Origin: Cloacibacillus sp. An23
GTDB lineage: Bacteria; Synergistota; Synergistia; Synergistales; Synergistaceae
Assembly (NCBI RefSeq): GCF_002159945.1
Contig: NZ_NFJQ01000009.1
Span: forward strand, 62,001-126,000
Direction of reading: 5' to 3'
DNA: 64,000 nucleotides
Both the position numbers and the translations under genes were made by a program. Shown here one piece after another: positions 8,632 through 43,601 of this stretch (the first letter of the stretch is position 1; the number at the start of each line of letters is the position of its first letter). Below the pieces are notes generated by a model. The model had not been told where the DNA came from. It was given only the letters and a program-made list of their open reading frames with translations, and searched no databases.

Positions 8632-8656
8632 CGTAAATGGATAAAAATGAATAAAT

Positions 8657-8760
8657 ACCCCGAGCCCGCCGTCCTGCGGGAGCTTGCGTTCCTATGGCGG
8701 CCGGGCCATTGGGTGCCGTTTGGAAACGGCGGCGCCTCCCGTCCGGAAAGGGGAAAAGGC
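8657..8760 (+). promoter_or_regulatory. Moco/Tuco-like riboswitch element 1
   Basis: The 5' part has CCCGAGCCCGCCG; the 3' part has a GNAA-capped hairpin (GCCGTTTGGAAACGGC, 8715-8730), then GGCGCCTCCC (8731-8740) and GGAAAGGGG (8745-8753). The order hairpin, GCCTCCC, short gap, GGAAAGG is shared with the three other elements in this window and, from memory, with the molybdenum-cofactor RNA motif (Rfam Moco_RNA_motif). It lacks the extra stem between CCTCCC and GGAAAGG seen in the element at 9980, so it may be the Tuco variant. The 5' half is the least conserved of the four. Confidence 0.55.
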
Positions 8761-8769
8761 TCGTCGGAA

Positions 8770-9962: not shown

Positions 9963-9981
9963 TTGCAACGTTGTTGCAACC
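9963..9981 (+). repeat. tandem GTTGCAAC palindromes, probable operator
   Basis: Two identical 8-base palindromes GTTGCAAC at 9963-9970 and 9974-9981, 11 bases centre to centre (one helix turn). They sit 16-34 bases after the promoter and abut the riboswitch element. I infer a repressor or activator site; the response regulator upstream is one candidate. Confidence 0.5.
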
Positions 9982-10108
9982 CCGAGCCCCGCCGCCTAAA
10001 GCGAAAGCCACGGAGGCCGGGCCAGCGGGCGAGAGTCCGCGAGGGCGCGCGCGAAAGCGCCGCGCCTCCCGGGACGCCTGAGGGCGTCCAAATTGGAAAG
10101 GGGTACAG
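9980..10108 (+). promoter_or_regulatory. Moco riboswitch-like element 2 (molybdenum hydroxylase leader)
   Basis: Strong match in order to the Moco RNA motif: CCCCGAGCCC, CGCCGCCTAAAGCGAAAGCC (9991-10010), a GAAA-capped hairpin GCGCGCGAAAGCGC (10047-10060 area), GCGCCTCCC (10062-10070), an extra hairpin GGACGCC/GGCGTCC (10072-10089), then GGAAAGGGG (10095-10103). Moco riboswitches sense molybdenum cofactor, and the downstream gene encodes a Moco enzyme. A hairpin TTCCCGC/GCGGGAA at 10183-10199 lies before the ribosome site and may be the expression platform. Confidence 0.75.
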
Positions 10109-10236
10109 GTCATCAGGCGCAGAGCGTCCGTTTCCTTCCTTCTTCTCCAATTCGCGCAAAAGCTTCATTGTGTTCTTTGGGATTCCCGCAGCGCGGGAAA
10201 ATGGAGAAATTTTTATCACGAGAGAGGGGATTACCA

Positions 10237-13083
10237 ATGGCGAAGGAAAAGACAGAAGCTCCGATCGCGGCGAGCTATCATGTCAAGAATCTCACCATCA
10301 ACGGCGTGCCGAGGCGCGTGATCGGCAAGCCCGACGTGTCGCTGCTCACGGTGCTGCGCGACCAGCTCAAGATGACGGGGACGAAGCGCGGCTGCGACTG
10401 CGGGCAGTGCGGCGTCTGCAACGTCATATTAAACGGGAAGGTCGTCCGCGCCTGCATCACGCGCTGGAAGAACGTGCCGGAATTCTCGCAGATCACCACC
10501 ATCGAGGGAATAGGCACGCCTGACAACCTGCACGCGCTCCAGTGGGCCATGATAGTCTGCGGAGCCATTCAGTGCGGCTTCTGCACGCCGGGGTTCATCA
10601 CGAGCGGAAAGGCGCTCCTCGACCAGAATCCGAACCCAACGCGCGAAGAGGTGCGCGAGTGGTTCAGCAAGAACTGGATGGCCTGCCGCTGCACCGGCTA
10701 CAAGCAGATAGTGGACGCTGTCATGAAGGCCGCGGCCATTCTGCGCGGCGAGGAAAAGATAGAAGACCTCGCGAAGATGTACAAGCCCGGCGATTCCGTA
10801 TGGAACACGAGCTATCCGCGTCCCTCCGCGGTATACAAGGCGACGGGGCTCTGGGACTTCGGCGACGACGACCGCCTCAAGCTGCCGGAGGAATTCCTCT
10901 TCGCGTATCCCTACACGCTCGAAGGCGTCCGCCACGCAAAGGTCAACAAGATAGACGTGAGCGAAGCGGAGCAGATGCCGGGCGTCTTCAAAGTCGTAAC
11001 CTACAAGGACGTCAAAGGGACTAACCGCATCCGCGGACAGGTCGGCTGCGACTCCGCGCTCACCGACGGCTGGGAGCGCCGCATAATGGTCGAGGAGGGC
11101 GACAAGATACGCCAGTGGGGCGACGTGATAGCCATCGTCTGCGCCGACACAGAGACCAACGCGCGCGCCGCGGCCCAGAAGATAAAGGTTGACTACGAGC
11201 CGCTGCCAGAGCTCATAGACATTTACCAGGCGAAGGCCCCGGACGCTATAAAGGTCTACGACAACATCGAGGGCTACGACGGAATGCCGAACGCGTGGAA
11301 CAAGCGCGTATTCACGAAGGGTGCCGACCCGAAGGAAGACCTCGACAACGCCGCGTACCTCGTGGACGACGAGTTCCTCAGCTCGCGCCAGCCGCACATG
11401 GTCCTCGAGACGGACTGCGGCTACGCCTACTACGACGAGAACGGCCTCCTTACGATAGCTTCCAAGTCGATATGCGTCTACCGCCACCAGATGATGATAG
11501 CGCGCGGCGTCGGCGTCCCGCCGTCGAGAATCCGCGTCATTCAAAACAATCTCGGCGCGTCGTTCGGCTACAAGGTCGCGCCGACCAACGAGCCGTATCT
11601 TGCGATAGCTCTCATAGCCTGCGGACGCCCCGTCTACATGCGCATAAACATGAAGGAGCACAACGTCCGCACGCCGAAACGCTCGCCGTTCCTCATGCAC
11701 ATCCGCGTCGGCGCGGACAAGAACGGCAAGCTCGTCGGAGCGGAACAGACCTGGTGGGTTGATCACGGCCCGTTCAGCGAGTCCGCGAACGACCTCACGA
11801 ACAAGGGCGGGCAGTTCTTCATGGCCCCCTACGCCTACGACAAGATGCGCGCCACCGGCTACACCTGCTGGAGCAACCACCGCTGGAGCGCCGCTTTCCG
11901 CGCCTACGGCGCGCCGCAGACCTACTGGGGCTGCGAGACCGCGATAGACATGCTCGCGAACAAGTGCGGAATCGACCCGTTCGACTTCCGCGAGATGAAC
12001 CTGCTCGAATGGGAGCCCTTCACGGAGAATCCGCGCGGGCAGTTCCCCTCCGGCTACGCGCCGGAAGTCTTCCCGCTTCCCGAAATGATGAAGAAGGCGC
12101 GCCCTTACTACGAAGAGATGAAGAAAAAGGCCGCGGAGCTCTCGAACGATAAGGTCAAGTACGGCGTCGGAGTCTCGATAGGCATCTACAACTCCAACGA
12201 CGACGGAGCCGACGAGGCTGCGAGCAACATCGAGCTCACGAAGGACGGCGTCATCCTCTACAACACCTGGGAAGACCACGGGCAGGGCGCGGACATGGGC
12301 TGCATCGGCACCGCGCACGAGGCGCTCAAGCCGCTCGGCCTGCGTCCCGAGCAGATAAAGCTCGTTCTCTCCGACACCGCGAAAGCGCCGAACAGCGGAG
12401 CCGCCGCAGCGAGCCGCTGCCAGGTCATGGTCGGCAACGCCATAGTGGACAGCTGCAAAAAGCTGCTCGACGCGATGCGCAAGCCAGACGGCACCTACCG
12501 CACCTACGACGAGATGGTGGCCGAGGAAATCCCGACCTTCTACGAAGGATACACCCAGGCTAAGATACTCCACGCCGACGGCACGACCGAAGTCTGCTCC
12601 GGCAACGACAAGGATACCGGCCACGGCAAGCCGTTCGGCTTCCACATGTTCGCGGTCAACCTTGCGATGGTCTCCGTCGATATGGACACCTGCAAGGCGC
12701 ACTGCGAGAAGTTCGTCCTCGTCGGCGACGTCGGCGTCATCAACAACTATCTCGTAGTTGACGGGCAGCAGTACGGCGGAATCGCGCAGGGCATAGGCCT
12801 CGCGCTCACCGAGGACTTCCTTGACGAGAATAAATACAACAACTTCGTCGTCATGGGCCTGCCCTACATCAAGGACATCCCCGACGACCTCACGCTCGTC
12901 CACGTCGAGACGCCGCGTCCGCTCGGGCCGTTCGGAGCCGCCGGCACCGGAGAGATGCCGCTCGCCGCGCCGCACGCCGCGGTATGCAACGCGATACACG
13001 ACGCATGCGGAGTGCGCATCAAGGCCATCCCCGCGAAGCCGGAAAAAATCCGCGCGGGCCTCGAAGCGCTCGGAAAGAAGTAA
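10237..13083 (+). CDS. molybdenum hydroxylase: aldehyde oxidoreductase/xanthine dehydrogenase type, single chain
   Basis: The 948-residue protein fuses two [2Fe-2S] domains to the large Moco domain, as in Desulfovibrio Mop (about 907 residues). The plant-type cluster uses Cys53, Cys58, Cys61 and Cys73; the second uses Cys113, Cys116, Cys150 and Cys152 (CGFC, CRCTGY). The Moco part contains AFRAYGAPQ and ends with TGEMPLAAP, where Glu906 is in the position of the catalytic Glu. There is no FAD domain. It should hydroxylate an aldehyde, purine or N-heterocycle, passing electrons to a flavodoxin or ferredoxin. The start follows AGAGGGGA by 6 bases; an in-frame ATG at 10201 lacks a site. The Moco-type leader supports the cofactor assignment. 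Confidence 0.9.
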   Translation: MAKEKTEAPIAASYHVKNLTINGVPRRVIGKPDVSLLTVLRDQLKMTGTKRGCDCGQCGVCNVILNGKVVRACITRWKNVPEFSQITTIEGIGTPDNLHALQWAMIVCGAIQCGFCTPGFITSGKALLDQNPNPTREEVREWFSKNWMACRCTGYKQIVDAVMKAAAILRGEEKIEDLAKMYKPGDSVWNTSYPRPSAVYKATGLWDFGDDDRLKLPEEFLFAYPYTLEGVRHAKVNKIDVSEAEQMPGVFKVVTYKDVKGTNRIRGQVGCDSALTDGWERRIMVEEGDKIRQWGDVIAIVCADTETNARAAAQKIKVDYEPLPELIDIYQAKAPDAIKVYDNIEGYDGMPNAWNKRVFTKGADPKEDLDNAAYLVDDEFLSSRQPHMVLETDCGYAYYDENGLLTIASKSICVYRHQMMIARGVGVPPSRIRVIQNNLGASFGYKVAPTNEPYLAIALIACGRPVYMRINMKEHNVRTPKRSPFLMHIRVGADKNGKLVGAEQTWWVDHGPFSESANDLTNKGGQFFMAPYAYDKMRATGYTCWSNHRWSAAFRAYGAPQTYWGCETAIDMLANKCGIDPFDFREMNLLEWEPFTENPRGQFPSGYAPEVFPLPEMMKKARPYYEEMKKKAAELSNDKVKYGVGVSIGIYNSNDDGADEAASNIELTKDGVILYNTWEDHGQGADMGCIGTAHEALKPLGLRPEQIKLVLSDTAKAPNSGAAAASRCQVMVGNAIVDSCKKLLDAMRKPDGTYRTYDEMVAEEIPTFYEGYTQAKILHADGTTEVCSGNDKDTGHGKPFGFHMFAVNLAMVSVDMDTCKAHCEKFVLVGDVGVINNYLVVDGQQYGGIAQGIGLALTEDFLDENKYNNFVVMGLPYIKDIPDDLTLVHVETPRPLGPFGAAGTGEMPLAAPHAAVCNAIHDACGVRIKAIPAKPEKIRAGLEALGKK

Positions 13084-32474: not shown

Positions 32475-34109
32475 CTAGCCGTTCGTCTGCTGCGCTACGA
32501 GGTTGTCGGCGCGGTACATGTGGCGCAGTTTCGGCTTTTCTATCTTGCCGGTCGGGTTGCGCGGGATGTCGGCGAATATTATGCGGCGCGGGCGCTTGTA
32601 GCGCGGCAGGGCCATGCAGTATTTTTCTACGTCCTCTTCCGTGCATTTCGCGCCCGGCTTGAGCTCTATTATCGCGGCGGCGATTTCGCCGAGACGCTTG
32701 TCGGGCAGGCCGATGACGGCTGCGTCTTTTACAGCGTCGTTGGCGCGCAGGAAGTCCTCTATCTGCACCGGATAGAGGTTCTCTCCGCCGCTGATTATAA
32801 CGTCCTTCTTGCGGTCTACGAGGTAGATGAAGCCGTCTTCGTCCTGTCTCGCCATGTCTCCTGTCAGCAGCCAGCCGTTTTTGAGTACTTCCGCGGTCGC
32901 CTTCGGGTCGTTGTAGTAGCATTTCATGACGCCCGGGCCTTTGACTGCGAGCTCGCCGACTCTGCCGTCGGTTATCGCGTTTCCGTTAGCGTCTACGATT
33001 TTGACGCGCCAGCCGTAGCCGGGGACGCCTATCGCTCCGACCTTGTCTATGTTGCCGAGACCGAGGTGGACGCAGCCCGGGCCGATGGATTCGGAGAGGC
33101 CGTAGTTCGTGTCGTACTTGTGCTTGGGGAACACCTTGCGCCATCTCGTGATGAGGCTCGGCGGCACGGGCTGCGCGCCGATGTGCATGAGCCGCCACTG
33201 CGAGAGCTCGTAGTCGGCGAGGTTGATTCGCCCGTCGTCTATCGCGTCGAGAATGTCCTGCACCCACGGCACGAGCAGCCAGACGATGGTGCATTTTTCG
33301 TTCGAGACGGTCTCTATTATCGTCTTCGGGTCTGTGCCTTTGAGCAGTATCCCTTTGCTGCCCGATATAAGGCTGCCGAACCAGTGCATCTTCGCGCCCG
33401 TGTGGTAGAGCGGCGGTATGCAGAGGAATACGTCGTCGTGCGTCTGCCCGTGGTGCGCCTGCTCTACCTTCGCCGCGTGCATGAGCGCGCGGTGCGCGTG
33501 GAGTATGGCTTTGGGGAAGCCGGTCGTGCCGGATGAGAAGTATATCGCCGCGTCGTCGTCGTCTGAGAGCAGTATGCGCGGCGCGTAGCTGGAAAGGTTC
33601 GCGGCGAGGTGTACGTAGTTCTCCGCGAAGCGCGGGCAGCCGTCGCCGATGAAGAAGCGCAGCTTGACGCGCGGTATCTGGTCGCAGATGTCCTCGACGC
33701 GGCCTATGAACTCGGGGCCGAAGAAGAGCGCATCCACGTCGGCTAGTTCGAGGCAGTATTTTATCTCTTCCGCGGTGTAGCGGAAGTTCAGCGGCACGGC
33801 GATGGCGCCGGTCTTGAGTATGCCGAAGTAGACGGGCAGCCATTCGAGGCTGTTCATCATGAGGATGGCGACCTTGTCGCCCTTTTTGATGCCGCGCGAG
33901 AGCAGCAGGTTGGCGCAGCGGTTGGCCTTCTCGTCGAATACGCCCCAGGTTATCTCGCGGCGGTAGCTCTCCGTAGGGCTGGACTCTATAAGCTCATATT
34001 CTTTCCACGTGACGCGGCGGATTTCCTTGACTTCGGGGTTGATCTCGACGAGCGCCGTCTCGTGGCAGAATTCGTGCGCGTTGCGCTCAAGCAGGTCGGT
34101 AATAGGCAT
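32475..34109 (-). CDS. acyl-CoA ligase/AMP-binding enzyme
   Basis: The 544-residue product is a class I adenylate-forming enzyme: AMP-binding P-loop AAIYFSSGTTGFPKAI (about residues 187-202), YGLSESIG near 338, motif LLTGDMARQDEDGFIYLVDRKKD (about 425-447) and C-terminal PRNPTGKIEKPKL with the catalytic Lys. It should activate a carboxylic acid with ATP and join it to CoA; the acid is unknown. The T-box leader upstream appears to respond to tRNA-Tyr, suggesting an aromatic acid derived from tyrosine, but that is inference. The ATG at 34109 is preceded by AGGAGGAG at 6-7 bases. An open frame continuing upstream enters the leader and is rejected. Confidence 0.88.
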   Translation of the reverse strand: MPITDLLERNAHEFCHETALVEINPEVKEIRRVTWKEYELIESSPTESYRREITWGVFDEKANRCANLLLSRGIKKGDKVAILMMNSLEWLPVYFGILKTGAIAVPLNFRYTAEEIKYCLELADVDALFFGPEFIGRVEDICDQIPRVKLRFFIGDGCPRFAENYVHLAANLSSYAPRILLSDDDDAAIYFSSGTTGFPKAILHAHRALMHAAKVEQAHHGQTHDDVFLCIPPLYHTGAKMHWFGSLISGSKGILLKGTDPKTIIETVSNEKCTIVWLLVPWVQDILDAIDDGRINLADYELSQWRLMHIGAQPVPPSLITRWRKVFPKHKYDTNYGLSESIGPGCVHLGLGNIDKVGAIGVPGYGWRVKIVDANGNAITDGRVGELAVKGPGVMKCYYNDPKATAEVLKNGWLLTGDMARQDEDGFIYLVDRKKDVIISGGENLYPVQIEDFLRANDAVKDAAVIGLPDKRLGEIAAAIIELKPGAKCTEEDVEKYCMALPRYKRPRRIIFADIPRNPTGKIEKPKLRHMYRADNLVAQQTNG

Positions 34110-34164
34110 TGCTGTTCTCCTCCTAAAAGTTTTCTTTTTCTTCCTTTTTCGGAGCGGCGGCAAT

Positions 34165-34200
34165 AAAAAAGCCCGCCCTCCCTAATCAGAGGACGGGCTT
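34165..34200 (-). terminator. T-box terminator
   Basis: AAGCCCGTCCTC pairs with GAGGGCGGGC around an 8-base loop, followed by TTTTTTATT on the minus strand, 56 bases before the ligase start. Confidence 0.9.
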
Positions 34201-34457
34201 TGAATCCCGTGGTACCACCTCAGTTTGGCGCTCCCTCGCGGAACGCGCCCTCGTCGGGTACGGGCCGAAGCCGGATACCCTGTCCGCTTTTACGGGCGGA
34301 CCCGTCGCAGCCTACTGAAATTCAAAGATCCGTTCGGTGCGCCGCTCTTGGAATGTATTTCGGCCCGTCCCTCCGCCGCCTTACACCGACCGGCGGCTCT
34401 CTGCGGGAGCGGCTGCGGGCTTACTTCTTTCCCGTCTTCGCGTTTGGCCTATATCAC
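34165..34457 (-). promoter_or_regulatory. T-box leader, probable tyrosine specifier
   Basis: Read on the minus strand. Stem I carries the AGTA half of a specifier loop (GAAGTAAGCC, about 34415-34424) and an AGAGAG...GGTGTAAGGC distal region (34370-34400). The returning strand GAAATACATTCC (34340-34351) contains GAA followed by UAC with a 3' purine, so the specifier is most likely Tyr (AUA, Ile, is the alternative). Further downstream is the T-box core AGGTGGTACCACGGG (34207-34221), then a terminator (34165-34200). T-boxes read uncharged tRNA and usually precede aminoacyl-tRNA synthetase or amino-acid genes; here the only downstream gene is an acyl-CoA ligase. Confidence 0.9.
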
Positions 34458-39445: not shown

Positions 39446-39474
39446 TTGTGTTTTGAGGCCGTTCATTGTAAGAT
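39446..39474 (+). promoter_or_regulatory. promoter of the tungstate operon leader
   Basis: TTGTGT (39446-39451), 17-base spacer, TAAGAT (39469-39474). It would start a leader of about 530 bases carrying two RNA elements. A second start near TAAAAT at 39762-39767 is possible. Confidence 0.5.
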
Positions 39475-39501
39475 TAAAGCGCTGGTTGAGATTTGGACGG
39501 T

Positions 39502-39598
39502 TCTCCGAGCCTGCCGCGCCTAAGGGCGAAAGCCTAGGGACTTCAGGCCGTCAGGGTCGCTTTCGGAAACGGGGCGGCCTCCCTCTGGAAAGGTGAAC
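39502..39598 (+). promoter_or_regulatory. Moco/Tuco-like riboswitch element 3
   Basis: Close match in order to the Moco RNA motif: CTCCGAGCCTGCCG, CGCCTAAGGGCGAAAGCC (39517-39534), GGCCGTCAGGG, a GGAA-capped hairpin near 39558-39576, GGCCTCCC (39576-39583) and GGAAAGGTG (39587-39595). It lacks the extra stem present in the element before the molybdenum hydroxylase, as I recall for the tungsten (Tuco) variant. It is followed 18 bases later by an intrinsic terminator. Confidence 0.75.
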
Positions 39599-39615
39599 GG
39601 CGGATTGTATTTCAC

Positions 39616-39654
39616 AAGGGCCGTGCTCTGGAGAGGACGGTCCTTTTCTTTTAT
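39616..39654 (+). terminator. terminator directly after riboswitch element 3
   Basis: AAGGGCCGTgCTC (39616-39628) pairs with GAGgACGGTCCTT, followed by TTCTTTTAT. No gene lies between element 3 and it, so it is an attenuator for the tungstate operon or ends a short regulatory RNA. Confidence 0.85.
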
Positions 39655-39812
39655 CAGAGCTTCACACATTTTTCCCCGCCGGGCGCGGACGACCCCAACG
39701 TCTCGCGCCCGGTTGTGTTCTTTTTCGTTTTATTCTGTGGTACAAAAGAAGCTAAATAGTGTAAAATAACCGCGACGGGCGTCTCTCGCGCGCTTTTGCG
39801 CGGACGGGCGCG
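39655..39812 (+). other. spacer between the two RNA elements
   Basis: AT-rich in the middle (39715-39770, possible second promoter). No coding frame supported. Confidence 0.4.
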
Positions 39813-39912
39813 GTACGTCCCTGAATCCGGCCTTTCTAAAGCTTTCGCCATGAGCGCCGGACGTCAGGGCGGCGATGGAAACGTCGCCGTCTCCCGCTGC
39901 GGAAAGGGGACT
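39813..39912 (+). promoter_or_regulatory. Moco/Tuco-like riboswitch element 4
   Basis: Shares with element 3 the stretch GTCAGGG (39863-39869) before a GNAA-capped hairpin (GGCGATGGAAACGTCGCC, 39871-39888), then GTCTCCC (39889-39895) and GGAAAGGGG (39901-39909). The 5' half has TCTAAAGCTTTCGCCATGAG, parallel to CCTAAAGCGAAAGCCACGGAG in element 2. CTCCC replaces CCTCCC context by one base, so it is a divergent member. Confidence 0.65.
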
Positions 39913-39943
39913 TCACGCTTCTTGCCGGGATTCACGGCGAATT

Positions 39944-40003
39944 CCTCCTTTTCGTGACGTGCATAGAGGGCTGTAAACGCAGCATAAATCTCACGAGGAG
40001 GGG
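39944..40003 (+). promoter_or_regulatory. ribosome-site sequestering helix of tupA
   Basis: TCACGAGGAGG (39991-40001), which contains the tupA Shine-Dalgarno, can pair with CCTCC-TTT-TCGTGA (39944-39957): 11 pairs with a 3-base bulge. It lies 30 bases after element 4 and is a plausible translational switch. Confidence 0.65.
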
Positions 40004-40012
40004 TTTATACCC

Positions 40013-40864
40013 ATGCGTATCAACAAAAAGTTTTCCGTGACCGCTCTTCTGCTCGCCGTCTGCGTGCTGGCTTTCGCATCGCTCGCCGGCGCCGAAGACA
40101 AGGCTCCGGTGCTCAGAATGGCGACGACTACAAGCACCGACGACACCGGGCTGCTCGACTATCTCGCGCCGCTCTGCCTCAAGGATACCGGCATCGACGT
40201 GCAGTGGGTCGCCGTCGGCACAGGCAAGGCTCTTGAGTACGGGCGCAACGGCGACGTAGACGTCGTGCTGACGCACGCGCCGTCGCAGGAGGACAAGTTC
40301 GAGGCCGAGGGTTACGGCGTGGACCGCCGCAAGGTCATGCACAACGACTTCGTCCTCATCGGCCCCGCGGGCGACCCCGCCGGCGTGAAGGGCAAGCCCG
40401 TTACCGAAGCTCTCGCGGCGATAGCGGCGAAGCAGCAGAAGCTCGTCAGCCGCGCCGACAAGTCCGGCACGCACACGGCCGAGCTCGCGCTTCTGGCGAA
40501 AGCCGGAGTGAAGGATTTCGACAAGGCTCCGTGGTACGTGCAGACCGGGCAGGGGATGCTCAAAACGATCAACATCGCAGAGGAGCAGGGCGGCTACGCG
40601 CTCACCGACCGCGGCACCTTCATCAAGTACGAGGCCGGCCTCAACGGACGTGAGGGACTCGTCATCATCTGCGAGGGCGACGACGAACTGCTCAACAAGT
40701 ACAGCATCATGGCGGTCAACCCCGAGAAACACCCCGAAGTCAAGTACGACCTCGCGGTAAAGTACATCGAGTGGATCACCTCGCCGAAGGCTCAGAAGGA
40801 TATCGCGGACTTCAAGGTCGAGGGCAAGCAGCTCTTCTTCCCCGACGCGGTCCCCGCGAAATAG
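40013..40864 (+). CDS. tupA: tungstate ABC transporter substrate-binding protein
   Basis: The 283-residue product has a signal peptide (cleavage near AGA-ED) and the TupA signature RMATTTSTDDTGLLDYLAP (residues 34-52), whose TTTS loop binds the oxyanion. It continues with VGTGKALEYGRNGDVDVVLTHAP near 68, SRADKSGTHT near 145 and GGYALTDRGTF near 190. Tup systems take up tungstate with very high affinity for tungsto-enzymes. Ribosome site GGAGGGG lies 9 bases before the ATG, within the helix described at 39944. It is the first gene of a four-gene operon. Confidence 0.93.
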   Translation: MRINKKFSVTALLLAVCVLAFASLAGAEDKAPVLRMATTTSTDDTGLLDYLAPLCLKDTGIDVQWVAVGTGKALEYGRNGDVDVVLTHAPSQEDKFEAEGYGVDRRKVMHNDFVLIGPAGDPAGVKGKPVTEALAAIAAKQQKLVSRADKSGTHTAELALLAKAGVKDFDKAPWYVQTGQGMLKTINIAEEQGGYALTDRGTFIKYEAGLNGREGLVIICEGDDELLNKYSIMAVNPEKHPEVKYDLAVKYIEWITSPKAQKDIADFKVEGKQLFFPDAVPAK

Positions 40865-40932: not shown

Positions 40933-41628
40933 ATGGACTTCATAGCCGAAGGTTTTATACAGGCTTTCAGAATGCTCCTCGCAATGGACGAGGAGACGTG
41001 CGTCATCGTCGCGACGACCTTCAAGCTGACGGCGCTGTCGATGGCAGGCGTGCTGCTCTTCGGCCTTCCGGCGGGCTTCCTTCTCGGATATTTCGACTTT
41101 CCCGGAAAGCGAGCCGTGCGCACGGTGACTGACACTCTGCTCGCGCTTCCGACAGTCGTCATAGGGCTGCTGGTCTACGCCTTCATCTCGCGGCGCGGGC
41201 CGCTCGGAGACATGGAGCTGCTCTTCACGATACGCGGCATGGCTATAGGACAGGTGATACTCGGCACGCCGATAGTCGCGGCCTACACCGCGGCGGCGAT
41301 AGAGGGGCTCGACAGCCGCCTGCGTCAGACTCTCATGACGCTCGGAGCGTCGGGCGGCAGGCTCGCGCTCGCGAGTTTATGGGAGGCGCGCTTCATGATA
41401 CTCGTCGCGGCTCTCACGGCATTCGGGCGCATCGTCGGCGAGGTCGGCTCCGCGATGATGCTCGGCGGCAACATCAAATGGCACACGCGCACGATAACGA
41501 CCGCGATAACGCTCGAGACCGGCAAGGGCGAGTTCGCGCTCGGAATAGCGCTCGGCGTCATTCTCATACTTATTTCGCTTCTTCTCAACATTTCGCTGAC
41601 TTTCCTGCGCCGCAGGAGCCAGAATTGA
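40933..41628 (+). CDS. tupB: tungstate ABC transporter permease
   Basis: The 231-residue protein has five or six membrane segments and the EAA-type coupling loop LRQTLMTLGASGGRLALASLWEARF (residues about 132-156). LPTVVIGLLVY near 74 is typical of TupB/WtpB. It forms the channel with TupC. The ribosome site is poor (GCGTTTTTTAG), which may mean coupled translation. A 20-base tandem duplication covers its stop codon. Confidence 0.9.
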   Translation: MDFIAEGFIQAFRMLLAMDEETCVIVATTFKLTALSMAGVLLFGLPAGFLLGYFDFPGKRAVRTVTDTLLALPTVVIGLLVYAFISRRGPLGDMELLFTIRGMAIGQVILGTPIVAAYTAAAIEGLDSRLRQTLMTLGASGGRLALASLWEARFMILVAALTAFGRIVGEVGSAMMLGGNIKWHTRTITTAITLETGKGEFALGIALGVILILISLLLNISLTFLRRRSQN

Positions 41629-41690: not shown

Positions 41691-42530
41691 ATGAAACAGT
41701 TCGCAATAGCTCTCGCAGCTCTTATGATATGCTCCCCGGCCTTCGCCGGGACGGTAAGGCTTTCAAGCACCATCGGCCCGGTCGACGCCGGCATAATCCC
41801 GCTGCTCGCCGATACATACACGGCTGAGACCGGGACGGAGTTCGTCATCGAAAAGGCGGGGACCGGCGCCACTCTCGAAAAGGCGAAGAGCGGCAACTTC
41901 GACATGGTCGTCGTCCACGCGCGCGCCCTCGAAGACAAATTCATCGCCGAGGGGTACGGGCAGAACCGCCGAGACGTAATGTACAACGACTTCGTCATCC
42001 TCGGCCCGCAGGACGACCCCGCCGGAATCAAGGGAATGAAATCCGCCGCCGGGGCGTTTAAGAAAATAGCGGCGTCAGGCGCTGAGTTCGTCAGCCGCGG
42101 AGACATGTCGGGCACGCACGTCGCCGAAACGAACGTATGGAAAGCCGCGGGAATCACGCCGGACGGAGAAAAGGACGCGTGGTATACTGTGTTCTCGCTA
42201 GGCAAGCTCGGCAACGGACATACGACGGAATTTGCGGACAGGCGCGGAGCCTATACGCTGATGGACCGCGCGACTTACCTGACGAAGAAGGATAAAATCG
42301 CCATAGTCCCGCTTGTCGAGGGCGACCCGATACTGCTCAACCTCATCGCCGCCATCGAGGTAAGCCCGAAGCGTTTTCCGAACGTCAACAATAAGGACGC
42401 CGCCGCCTTCATCGACTGGCTCTGCGGAGACGAGGCGCAGACGATAATAAAGGACTTCAAAGTCGATCAGTACGGCGAACCGCTCTTCTTCCCGAACTCG
42501 GACGAATGGAACAAAAAGCACGGAAAATAA
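41691..42530 (+). CDS. second substrate-binding protein of the tungstate operon
   Basis: The 279-residue product has a signal peptide (cleavage near AFA-G) and the same fold text as TupA: VIEKAGTGATLEKAKSGNFDMVVVHA near 53, SRGDMSGTHVAE near 136 and RGAYTLMDRATYL near 185. The oxyanion loop differs: TTTSTDDTGLL of TupA becomes SSTIGPVDAGII (residues about 23-34). It is probably a paralogue with another ligand preference (molybdate, tungstate or a related anion), sharing TupB and TupC. GGAGGGTG lies about 12 bases before the ATG. Confidence 0.85.
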   Translation: MKQFAIALAALMICSPAFAGTVRLSSTIGPVDAGIIPLLADTYTAETGTEFVIEKAGTGATLEKAKSGNFDMVVVHARALEDKFIAEGYGQNRRDVMYNDFVILGPQDDPAGIKGMKSAAGAFKKIAASGAEFVSRGDMSGTHVAETNVWKAAGITPDGEKDAWYTVFSLGKLGNGHTTEFADRRGAYTLMDRATYLTKKDKIAIVPLVEGDPILLNLIAAIEVSPKRFPNVNNKDAAAFIDWLCGDEAQTIIKDFKVDQYGEPLFFPNSDEWNKKHGK

Positions 42531-42581: not shown

Positions 42582-43601
42582 ATGAACTCCCTGCTTTACG
42601 AAATTCATAATCTCAAGCAGAGCTACGAAAAGGGACGCCCGAATCTCGACATTTCGGAGCTTTCCATAGAGCGCGGCGCCGTCACTGGAATCGTCGGGCC
42701 GAACGGCTGCGGCAAATCCACGCTGCTGAAGGCGCTCGCTTTTCTAATCCCGGCCTCGGGCGAGATAATTTTCGACGGACGTCCCGCGGCCGGGCGCGAG
42801 CGCGAGATTCGGCGCGAGGTTACATATCTGCTGCAGGAGCCGTATCTTCTGAAACGCTCCGTATTCGAGAACGTCGCCTACGGGCTGAGGCTGCGCGGCA
42901 TGGAGAAAGCGCGGCTCGATACGCGCGTGCGCGAGAGCCTCGAGGCCGTCGGCCTCGCGCCCGGGGAGTTCGCGCCGCGTCCGTGGTACAGGCTCTCGGG
43001 CGGCGAGGCGCAGCGCGTCGCGCTCGCGGCGCGGCTCGCTCTGAGGCCGAAGGCGCTGCTGCTCGACGAGCCGACGGCGAACGTGGACGAGGCGAGCGCG
43101 CAGCTCGTGATGGAGGCCGCCGTGCGCGCCGCGCGCGAGCACGGGGCCGCGGTCGTGGTATCGACGCACGACACGGCGTGGCTTTACGAGACGGCCTCGA
43201 AGGTCGCCGGCATGTACGGAGGCCGCATCGCGGGCGGCGGCGCGGAGAACGTCTTCCGCGGCGGCTGGACGCGCTGCGGCGGGCTTATGACGCGCCCCTT
43301 CCCGGGCGGTCAGGCGCTATTCGCGTGGCCCGGCCCTTCGGCGCGCGCCGCGGCGCTCAGCCCTTCGGACATAACCGTTTCCACGGAGATCCCGCCGCGC
43401 GCTGAGGATACGAACGTCCTGCGCGGCGTCGTCTCTCAGCTCACGCTCGAGCGCGCGACGGGGCGGGTGCTGCTCTCCGCCGACGTTTCTGGCTGTTCGG
43501 TGAAGGCGCGCCTTTCCGCCGGCGACGCGGCGCTTTCGGCCCTTTCGCCCGGCTCCGAGGTTTTCCTCTCCTTTTCATATTCCGCGCTCCGCTGGCTCTG
43601 A
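42582..43601 (+). CDS. tupC: tungstate ABC transporter ATPase with extra C-terminal domain
   Basis: The 339-residue product has Walker A GPNGCGKST (residues 39-47), signature RLSGGEAQRVALAARLAL near 139, Walker B KALLLDEPTANVDEA and switch His in STHDTAW. After residue 225 there is a second domain of about 110 residues: LSPSDITVSTEIPPRAEDTN followed by beta strands like those of TOBE/Mop domains, which bind oxyanions in ModC. Typical TupC proteins are shorter, so this one may carry an anion-sensing brake. It is last in the operon and has no clear terminator before glmS. Confidence 0.9.
   Translation: MNSLLYEIHNLKQSYEKGRPNLDISELSIERGAVTGIVGPNGCGKSTLLKALAFLIPASGEIIFDGRPAAGREREIRREVTYLLQEPYLLKRSVFENVAYGLRLRGMEKARLDTRVRESLEAVGLAPGEFAPRPWYRLSGGEAQRVALAARLALRPKALLLDEPTANVDEASAQLVMEAAVRAAREHGAAVVVSTHDTAWLYETASKVAGMYGGRIAGGGAENVFRGGWTRCGGLMTRPFPGGQALFAWPGPSARAAALSPSDITVSTEIPPRAEDTNVLRGVVSQLTLERATGRVLLSADVSGCSVKARLSAGDAALSALSPGSEVFLSFSYSALRWL

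Follow-up and report, generated by a model that had tools for sequence, protein, structure and literature searches.

The window, that is, the whole stretch of 64,000 nucleotides analysed here, contains a tup operon that opens with tupA (40013-40864, + strand), which encodes a tungstate-binding protein (best NCBIfam match TupA, E 7.5e-94), and continues with tupB (40933-41628; TupB, E 2.2e-78), a second tupA-like gene (41691-42530; TupA, E 9.6e-48) and tupC (42582-43601; TupC, E 8.5e-43). All four genes, the second tupA-like gene included, score under the curated equivalog cut-offs (TupA 314/400, TupB 263/320, TupC 146.5/400). By its best NCBIfam matches tupABC would encode a tungstate transporter, and molybdate may be a substrate. 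The second TupA-like protein is ~40% identical to the first, is kept in relatives and may bind a different oxyanion. The tungsten-enzyme family AFOR is encoded once in the source genome, a member of the Synergistaceae, and is present in 15 of the 16 genomes that carry the tandem leader described below.

Two aptamers of one family upstream of tupA

An Rfam scan of the whole window gave four matches to the Moco/Wco family RF01055, two of which lie on the + strand upstream of tupA: RS1 (39491-39611; 64.9 bits, E 2.5e-13) and RS2 (39807-39925; 53 bits, E 7.8e-10). Both match the model over its full length (positions 1-135) and exceed its gathering score of 36 bits. An earlier note on this DNA had called both elements Moco/Tuco-like and proposed such a covariance search, which bears out that assignment; the element order it had seen in both (hairpin with GNAA loop, CTCCC, GGAAAGG) is likewise present. 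In the RF01055 alignments, RS1 and RS2 have in common P1, P2 with a CUAAG/UAUGG-like receptor, a GAAA-looped P4, CUCCC and GGAAAGG. The P3 columns are deleted in both, which places them among the P3-lacking members, and they probably belong to the proposed tungsten-cofactor (Wco/Tuco) subtype, with Wco as the presumed ligand. The division of the family into molybdenum and tungsten types rests on correlation with one stem (Regulski et al. 2008, PMC2408646).

By its score and the leader alignment, RS1 is a canonical P3-lacking aptamer, with one U-U mismatch in P1 (39500-39506 with 39592-39598, +) and the junction GA at 39507-39508 (+). RS2 is a variant by its score and pair counts; its P1 (39817-39822 with 39906-39911, +) has a U-G closing pair and is followed by the junction GAA (39823-39825, +).

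RS1 and its terminator

As the earlier note had read it, RS1 is followed, with no intervening gene, by an intrinsic terminator (T1; 39616-39652, +), which has a U-rich tail and a fold of -19.6 kcal/mol and serves as the RS1 platform. The 5' arm of T1 (GGCCGT in the window) has a second possible partner, the P1 3' strand of RS1, with which it forms an antiterminator; this complementarity, between GGCCGTACTC in the T1 arm and GGAGAACGGC in the P1 strand, gives duplexes of -10 to -20 kcal/mol across 13 leaders. In structure modelling, enforcing RS1 P1 led T1 to fold, and blocking the P1 5' strand led to the antiterminator in nascent RNA, each in 12 of the 13 leaders. Since the P1 and antiterminator folds are mutually exclusive in the models, a ligand-stabilised RS1 P1 should terminate transcription, and the modelling supports RS1 as a predicted transcriptional OFF switch acting via T1.

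Among the 13 leaders, the antiterminator is weakest in the window (duplex -10.1 kcal/mol), where the full-length leader modelled without RS1 P1 still prefers T1. The weak antiterminator and the P1 mismatch would fit a reading in which RS1 is a redundant duplicate in decay and RS2 alone matters. We find that reading barely credible, however, as RS1 outscores RS2 in the family model (64.9 versus 53 bits) and averages 77% column identity, its core being invariant, in the alignment of 13 leaders.

RS2 as a variant aptamer

Where canonical members have CCGA, the junction reads CUGAA (UUGAA in G012, G017 and G018) in all 13 aligned RS2 sequences and in those of G017, G018 and G048. UGAA replaces CCGA in every one of the 16 distinct RS2 sequences inspected, whereas CCGA is present in each of the ~63 other Moco RNAs inspected from Synergistota. 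RS2 further differs from canonical aptamers in its P1 closing pair (U-G or U-A), one inserted A and a variable P2 closing pair, and its second P4 pair is G-U in 11 of 12 sequences. The RF01055 consensus CCGAGC at P1/J1-2/P2 is missing from RS2, which has CCUGAA instead; a CCGAGC match is no formal criterion of RF01055 membership, and RS2 counts as a variant of the family because the remaining core is kept. The helices of RS2 covary, with nine pairs changed on both sides and 34 cells versus 11.9 expected by shuffling; we therefore regard RS2 as a maintained aptamer. A variant model (R2) built from twelve RS2 sequences gave the window RS2, itself part of the training set, 105.7 bits. Among the R2 matches listed, the RS2 copies of tup leaders scored 73-111 bits and all others at most 67, and the variant was seen only at tup leaders.

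RS1 and RS2 may sense the same ligand, judging by their shared Rfam family and P3 state, but their junctions differ. If RS1 were to sense Wco and RS2 another form of the cofactor (Moco or a precursor), either ligand would shut the operon in a NOR-like manner, and the strict presence of UGAA in RS2, the G-U pair in P4 and the confinement of the variant to tup leaders all favour such a two-ligand gate, as does a genome encoding both a W-type AFOR and a Mo-type aldehyde oxidoreductase (10237-13080). We nevertheless consider the gate unlikely: P3, the sole feature tied so far to molybdenum versus tungsten (PMC2408646), is absent from both aptamers, the core (AGGG, GGAAA, CUCCC, GGAAAGG) is retained in RS2, and its altered junction may reflect structural drift within one lineage.

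RS2 and the tupA ribosome site

The earlier note had described an 11-base helix between a segment downstream of RS2 and the tupA ribosome site, and modelling now places this pairing in the state in which RS2 P1 is formed: a CU-rich anti-SD segment, CCUCCUUUUCGUGA (39944-39957, +), pairs with the tupA Shine-Dalgarno (SD) region, GAGGAGGGG (39995-40003, +). Without P1, the anti-SD is modelled to pair instead with the purine-rich 3' strand of RS2, GAAAGGGG. The AGGAGGG of the SD is invariant in 13/13 leaders, and the CU-rich segment lies 23-42 nt downstream of RS2 P1 in most of them. Enforcing RS2 P1 lowered the modelled openness of the tupA SD in all 13 leaders (in the window, 0.00 with P1 and 0.27 without), and the difference between the unbound and P1-formed states averaged 0.29, versus 0.024 for dinucleotide-shuffled linkers. 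The real effect was reached by at most 1 in 25 shuffled linkers in 11 of the 13 leaders; in the remaining two, G009 and G042, it was not above that of shuffled linkers in this model. On these models, RS2 is predicted to be a translational OFF switch at tupA.

Two candidate promoters

Promoter A (39446-39474, +) comprises a -35 box TTGTGT (39446-39451), a 17-nt spacer and a -10 box TAAGAT (39469-39474). It matches the consensus at only 7 of 12 positions, and its pattern (a TTG-containing -35, 17 nt, TANNAT) lies immediately upstream of RS1 in most tandem relatives. Promoter B (39739-39767, +), between the switches, comprises GGTACA (39739-39744), a 17-nt spacer and TAAAAT (39762-39767) in a conserved block, TAGTGTANAAT, which is invariant as TNGTGTANAAT in 13/13 aligned leaders except for the first bases, deleted in G046. 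The promoter B motif GTGTANAAT was found in 15/15 tandem leaders, with a -35 that is TTGAAA or NNNACA-like, 17-18 nt away. The -35 boxes in the window are poor. A generic promoter scan of the window reported neither promoter A nor promoter B, and both therefore rest on comparison. In G017 and G018, which lack RS1, a similar block directly 5' of RS2 is the sole promoter candidate seen near RS2 and provides, at the level of sequence, the best evidence that promoter B is a promoter. In several tandem leaders a small hairpin (39770-39820 in the window; e.g., GUAUG...CAUAC) lies just 5' of RS2 P1, with a sequence that varies between genera.

Since promoter B is conserved between the switches, tupA need not be reached through RS1, and an RNA would be gated twice only if it started at the upstream promoter. 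The proposal in the earlier note that metal cofactor gates the operon twice thus stands in that two platforms precede tupA, but it applies to promoter A transcripts only. The note had also named a separate promoter at about 39762 as what would keep the two elements from sharing a transcript; a conserved promoter-like element does lie there, but it does not imply separate transcripts. We infer that both promoters are used and that promoter A transcripts reach tupA.

A conserved hairpin between the switches

Between T1 and promoter B lies element H (39648-39732, +), a hairpin (39679-39712) with the 7-nt loop ACCCCAA (39692-39698) and a conserved ACACA/TCYCC stretch upstream. The loop is invariant as [AC]CCCCAA, compensatory changes are found in 8 of 9 stem pairs, and 95.7% of the cells of H are paired, versus 38-50% when slid. 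H had no match among Rfam families. Across 188 genomes of the phylum, the model built for it (R1) matched once in each genome that had a match, and every match lay in a tandem tup leader with the exception of a marginal one (E 0.006). In leaders with RS1 only, a similar hairpin with the loop CCUCCCAA was seen by eye downstream of T1.

H was rejected as a second intrinsic terminator for most genomes, its stem having no proper U-tract after it, and as a repeated genomic element, since a search of the genome admitting E values up to 10 gave a single match. Its loop was also rejected as a complement of the tupA SD, the order of complementarity being wrong by eye. It is conceivable, but in our judgement unlikely, that RS2 is an aptamer of altered preference, that the leader is a two-input gate on two cofactor forms and that some factor acts at the CCCCAA-loop hairpin.

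Conservation and history of the leader

The earlier note had suggested a survey of tup operons in Synergistota, and a family-wide search found same-strand RF01055 pairs 309-386 nt apart in 15 Synergistaceae genomes. G048, in which H and RS2 are present and a contig edge leaves only the 3' end of RS1, adds a sixteenth, so that the RS1/RS2 pair is kept in 16 genomes of 7 genera. Given this spread across 7 genera, we rejected the idea that the tandem is a chance neighbourhood with a decaying copy. The divergent neighbours of the leader vary (trkA in the source genome and G046, other genes elsewhere), and the leader therefore travels with tup.

RS1 and T1 precede tupA without RS2 in G032, G038 and G040, and RS2 and promoter B precede it without RS1 in G017 (L114) and G018 (L113); each half thus occurs before tupA by itself. 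In the TupA tree, the RS2-bearing sequences form one clade (support 100/100), within which the tandem sequences group together (84/63) with the RS2-only G017 and G018 as sister, while the RS1-only G032, G038 and G040 fall outside. The simplest reading of this history is an ancestral RS1-T1-tupA leader in which RS2 would have been gained once, with RS1 lost in G017 and G018. The leaders of these two genomes amount to a natural deletion of RS1 and offer a possible control for the tandem arrangement. In other Synergistota families, mostly one canonical aptamer and a terminator precede tupA.

These comparisons bear on whether the two switches are separate units, with tupA expressed solely from promoter B via RS2 and promoter A, RS1 and T1 (with H) forming a trans-acting short RNA or a relic. 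All tandem leaders have promoter B, which in G017 and G018 occurs alone, the stretch between T1 and promoter B is free of genes, and H is an additional stable structure downstream of T1, all of which would fit such a division. We think it unlikely, however. RS1 and its antiterminator are conserved with no decay, and H has no good U-tract in most genomes. Furthermore, three relatives and other Synergistota families have RS1-T1 immediately upstream of tupA with no RS2, which makes tupA the ancestral target of RS1-T1.

Proposed mechanism

We favour, with somewhat more confidence than doubt, a two-promoter, two-riboswitch OFF/OFF control of the tup operon. Transcripts from promoter A would traverse RS1 first. 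Cofactor (probably Wco) bound to RS1 would keep P1 formed, T1 would fold and transcription would stop; with RS1 unbound, the P1 3' strand would pair with the T1 5' arm and the polymerase would carry on across H and RS2 and reach tupA. Promoter B, with its start between the switches, would give transcripts that carry RS2 only. In both kinds of mRNA, cofactor-bound RS2 would keep its P1, leaving the CU-rich anti-SD free to bury the tupA SD, whereas in unbound RS2 the purine-rich 3' strand would take the anti-SD and expose the SD. Plentiful cofactor would in this way shut off tungstate import at two levels, by halting transcription on the promoter A route and by blocking translation of every mRNA. 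We count in favour of this OFF/OFF control that Moco RNAs repress in the presence of ligand in E. coli (PMC2408646) and that the tandem genomes nearly all have AFOR. The mismatched RS1 P1 and weak antiterminator of the window, its preference for T1 in the full-length fold, the behaviour of RS2 in G009 and G042 and the poor -35 boxes count against it. H has no place in the model and is not accounted for by it.

Relation to known tandem riboswitches

The earlier note knew of no tandem for this class, but Moco/Wco tandems have been described. The available text of Regulski et al. (PMC2408646) reports Moco tandems in Syntrophomonas wolfei and G. metallireducens, among them a triple whose first two copies are each followed by a terminator. 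Like the tup leader, the S. wolfei triple has serial P3-lacking aptamers before genes that include molybdate/tungstate transport; terminators follow its upstream copies, and a long gap follows the last one. It differs in having three copies and, in that text, no platform assigned to the last; an internal promoter, a variant junction and an inter-aptamer hairpin, all found in the tup leader, are not described there for the triple. Sherlock et al. 2022 (PMC9481103) count, in the text available, 13 Moco doublets and 2 triplets and list Wco tandems. The tup leader resembles these doublets as two aptamers of one class in tandem. That text files Moco/Wco tandems as pseudo-cooperative, and its Wco tandems precede genes unrelated to tungsten-cofactor synthesis rather than tup.

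The bi-mechanism tandem (terminator, then ribosome-binding site) is defined in the same text of PMC9481103 with examples that are all SAM riboswitches. In our models the tup leader has the same arrangement, RS1 with a terminator and RS2 with control of the ribosome-binding site. As in the SAM-II/SAM-V tandem described there, the first aptamer would terminate and the second control ribosome access; the ligand and folds are different, and that text mentions no internal promoter. Promoters upstream of and between two elements, the second of which can act alone, are described there for the adenine/T-box(Tyr) tandem of Clostridium botulinum, which differs from the tup leader in its differing ligands and logic. 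Closer to hand, the single riboswitch-terminator leaders of tupA in other Synergistota families share the aptamer class and target gene, but they have one canonical aptamer and no RS2, and no internal promoter was seen in them. Because Moco/Wco tandems and SAM bi-mechanism tandems precede it, the tup leader varies a known type of double riboswitch and is not a new phenomenon; for Synergistota tup leaders, we found no report in the open-access literature.

If our model is true, the tup leader extends bi-mechanism tandems beyond the SAM classes, and its internal promoter allows one of the switches to be skipped. The leader also bears on how tungsten cofactor is told from molybdenum cofactor in cells, and a canonical and an altered-junction aptamer before one tungstate operon would permit a direct, side-by-side test of specificity in one leader.

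Other RNA elements in the window

A P3-lacking Moco-family RNA at 8646-8769 precedes a gene for a DcuR/DpiA-like response regulator, an unusual target, and a Moco-family RNA with an apparent P3 at 9968-10119 precedes a gene for a molybdopterin-dependent aldehyde oxidoreductase; a similarly spaced pair recurs in several relatives. On the minus strand, a T-box leader (34186-34447, 103.5 bits) lies immediately upstream of an AMP-binding gene of acyl-CoA synthetase-like type (32475-34163, also minus), which is an unusual T-box target.
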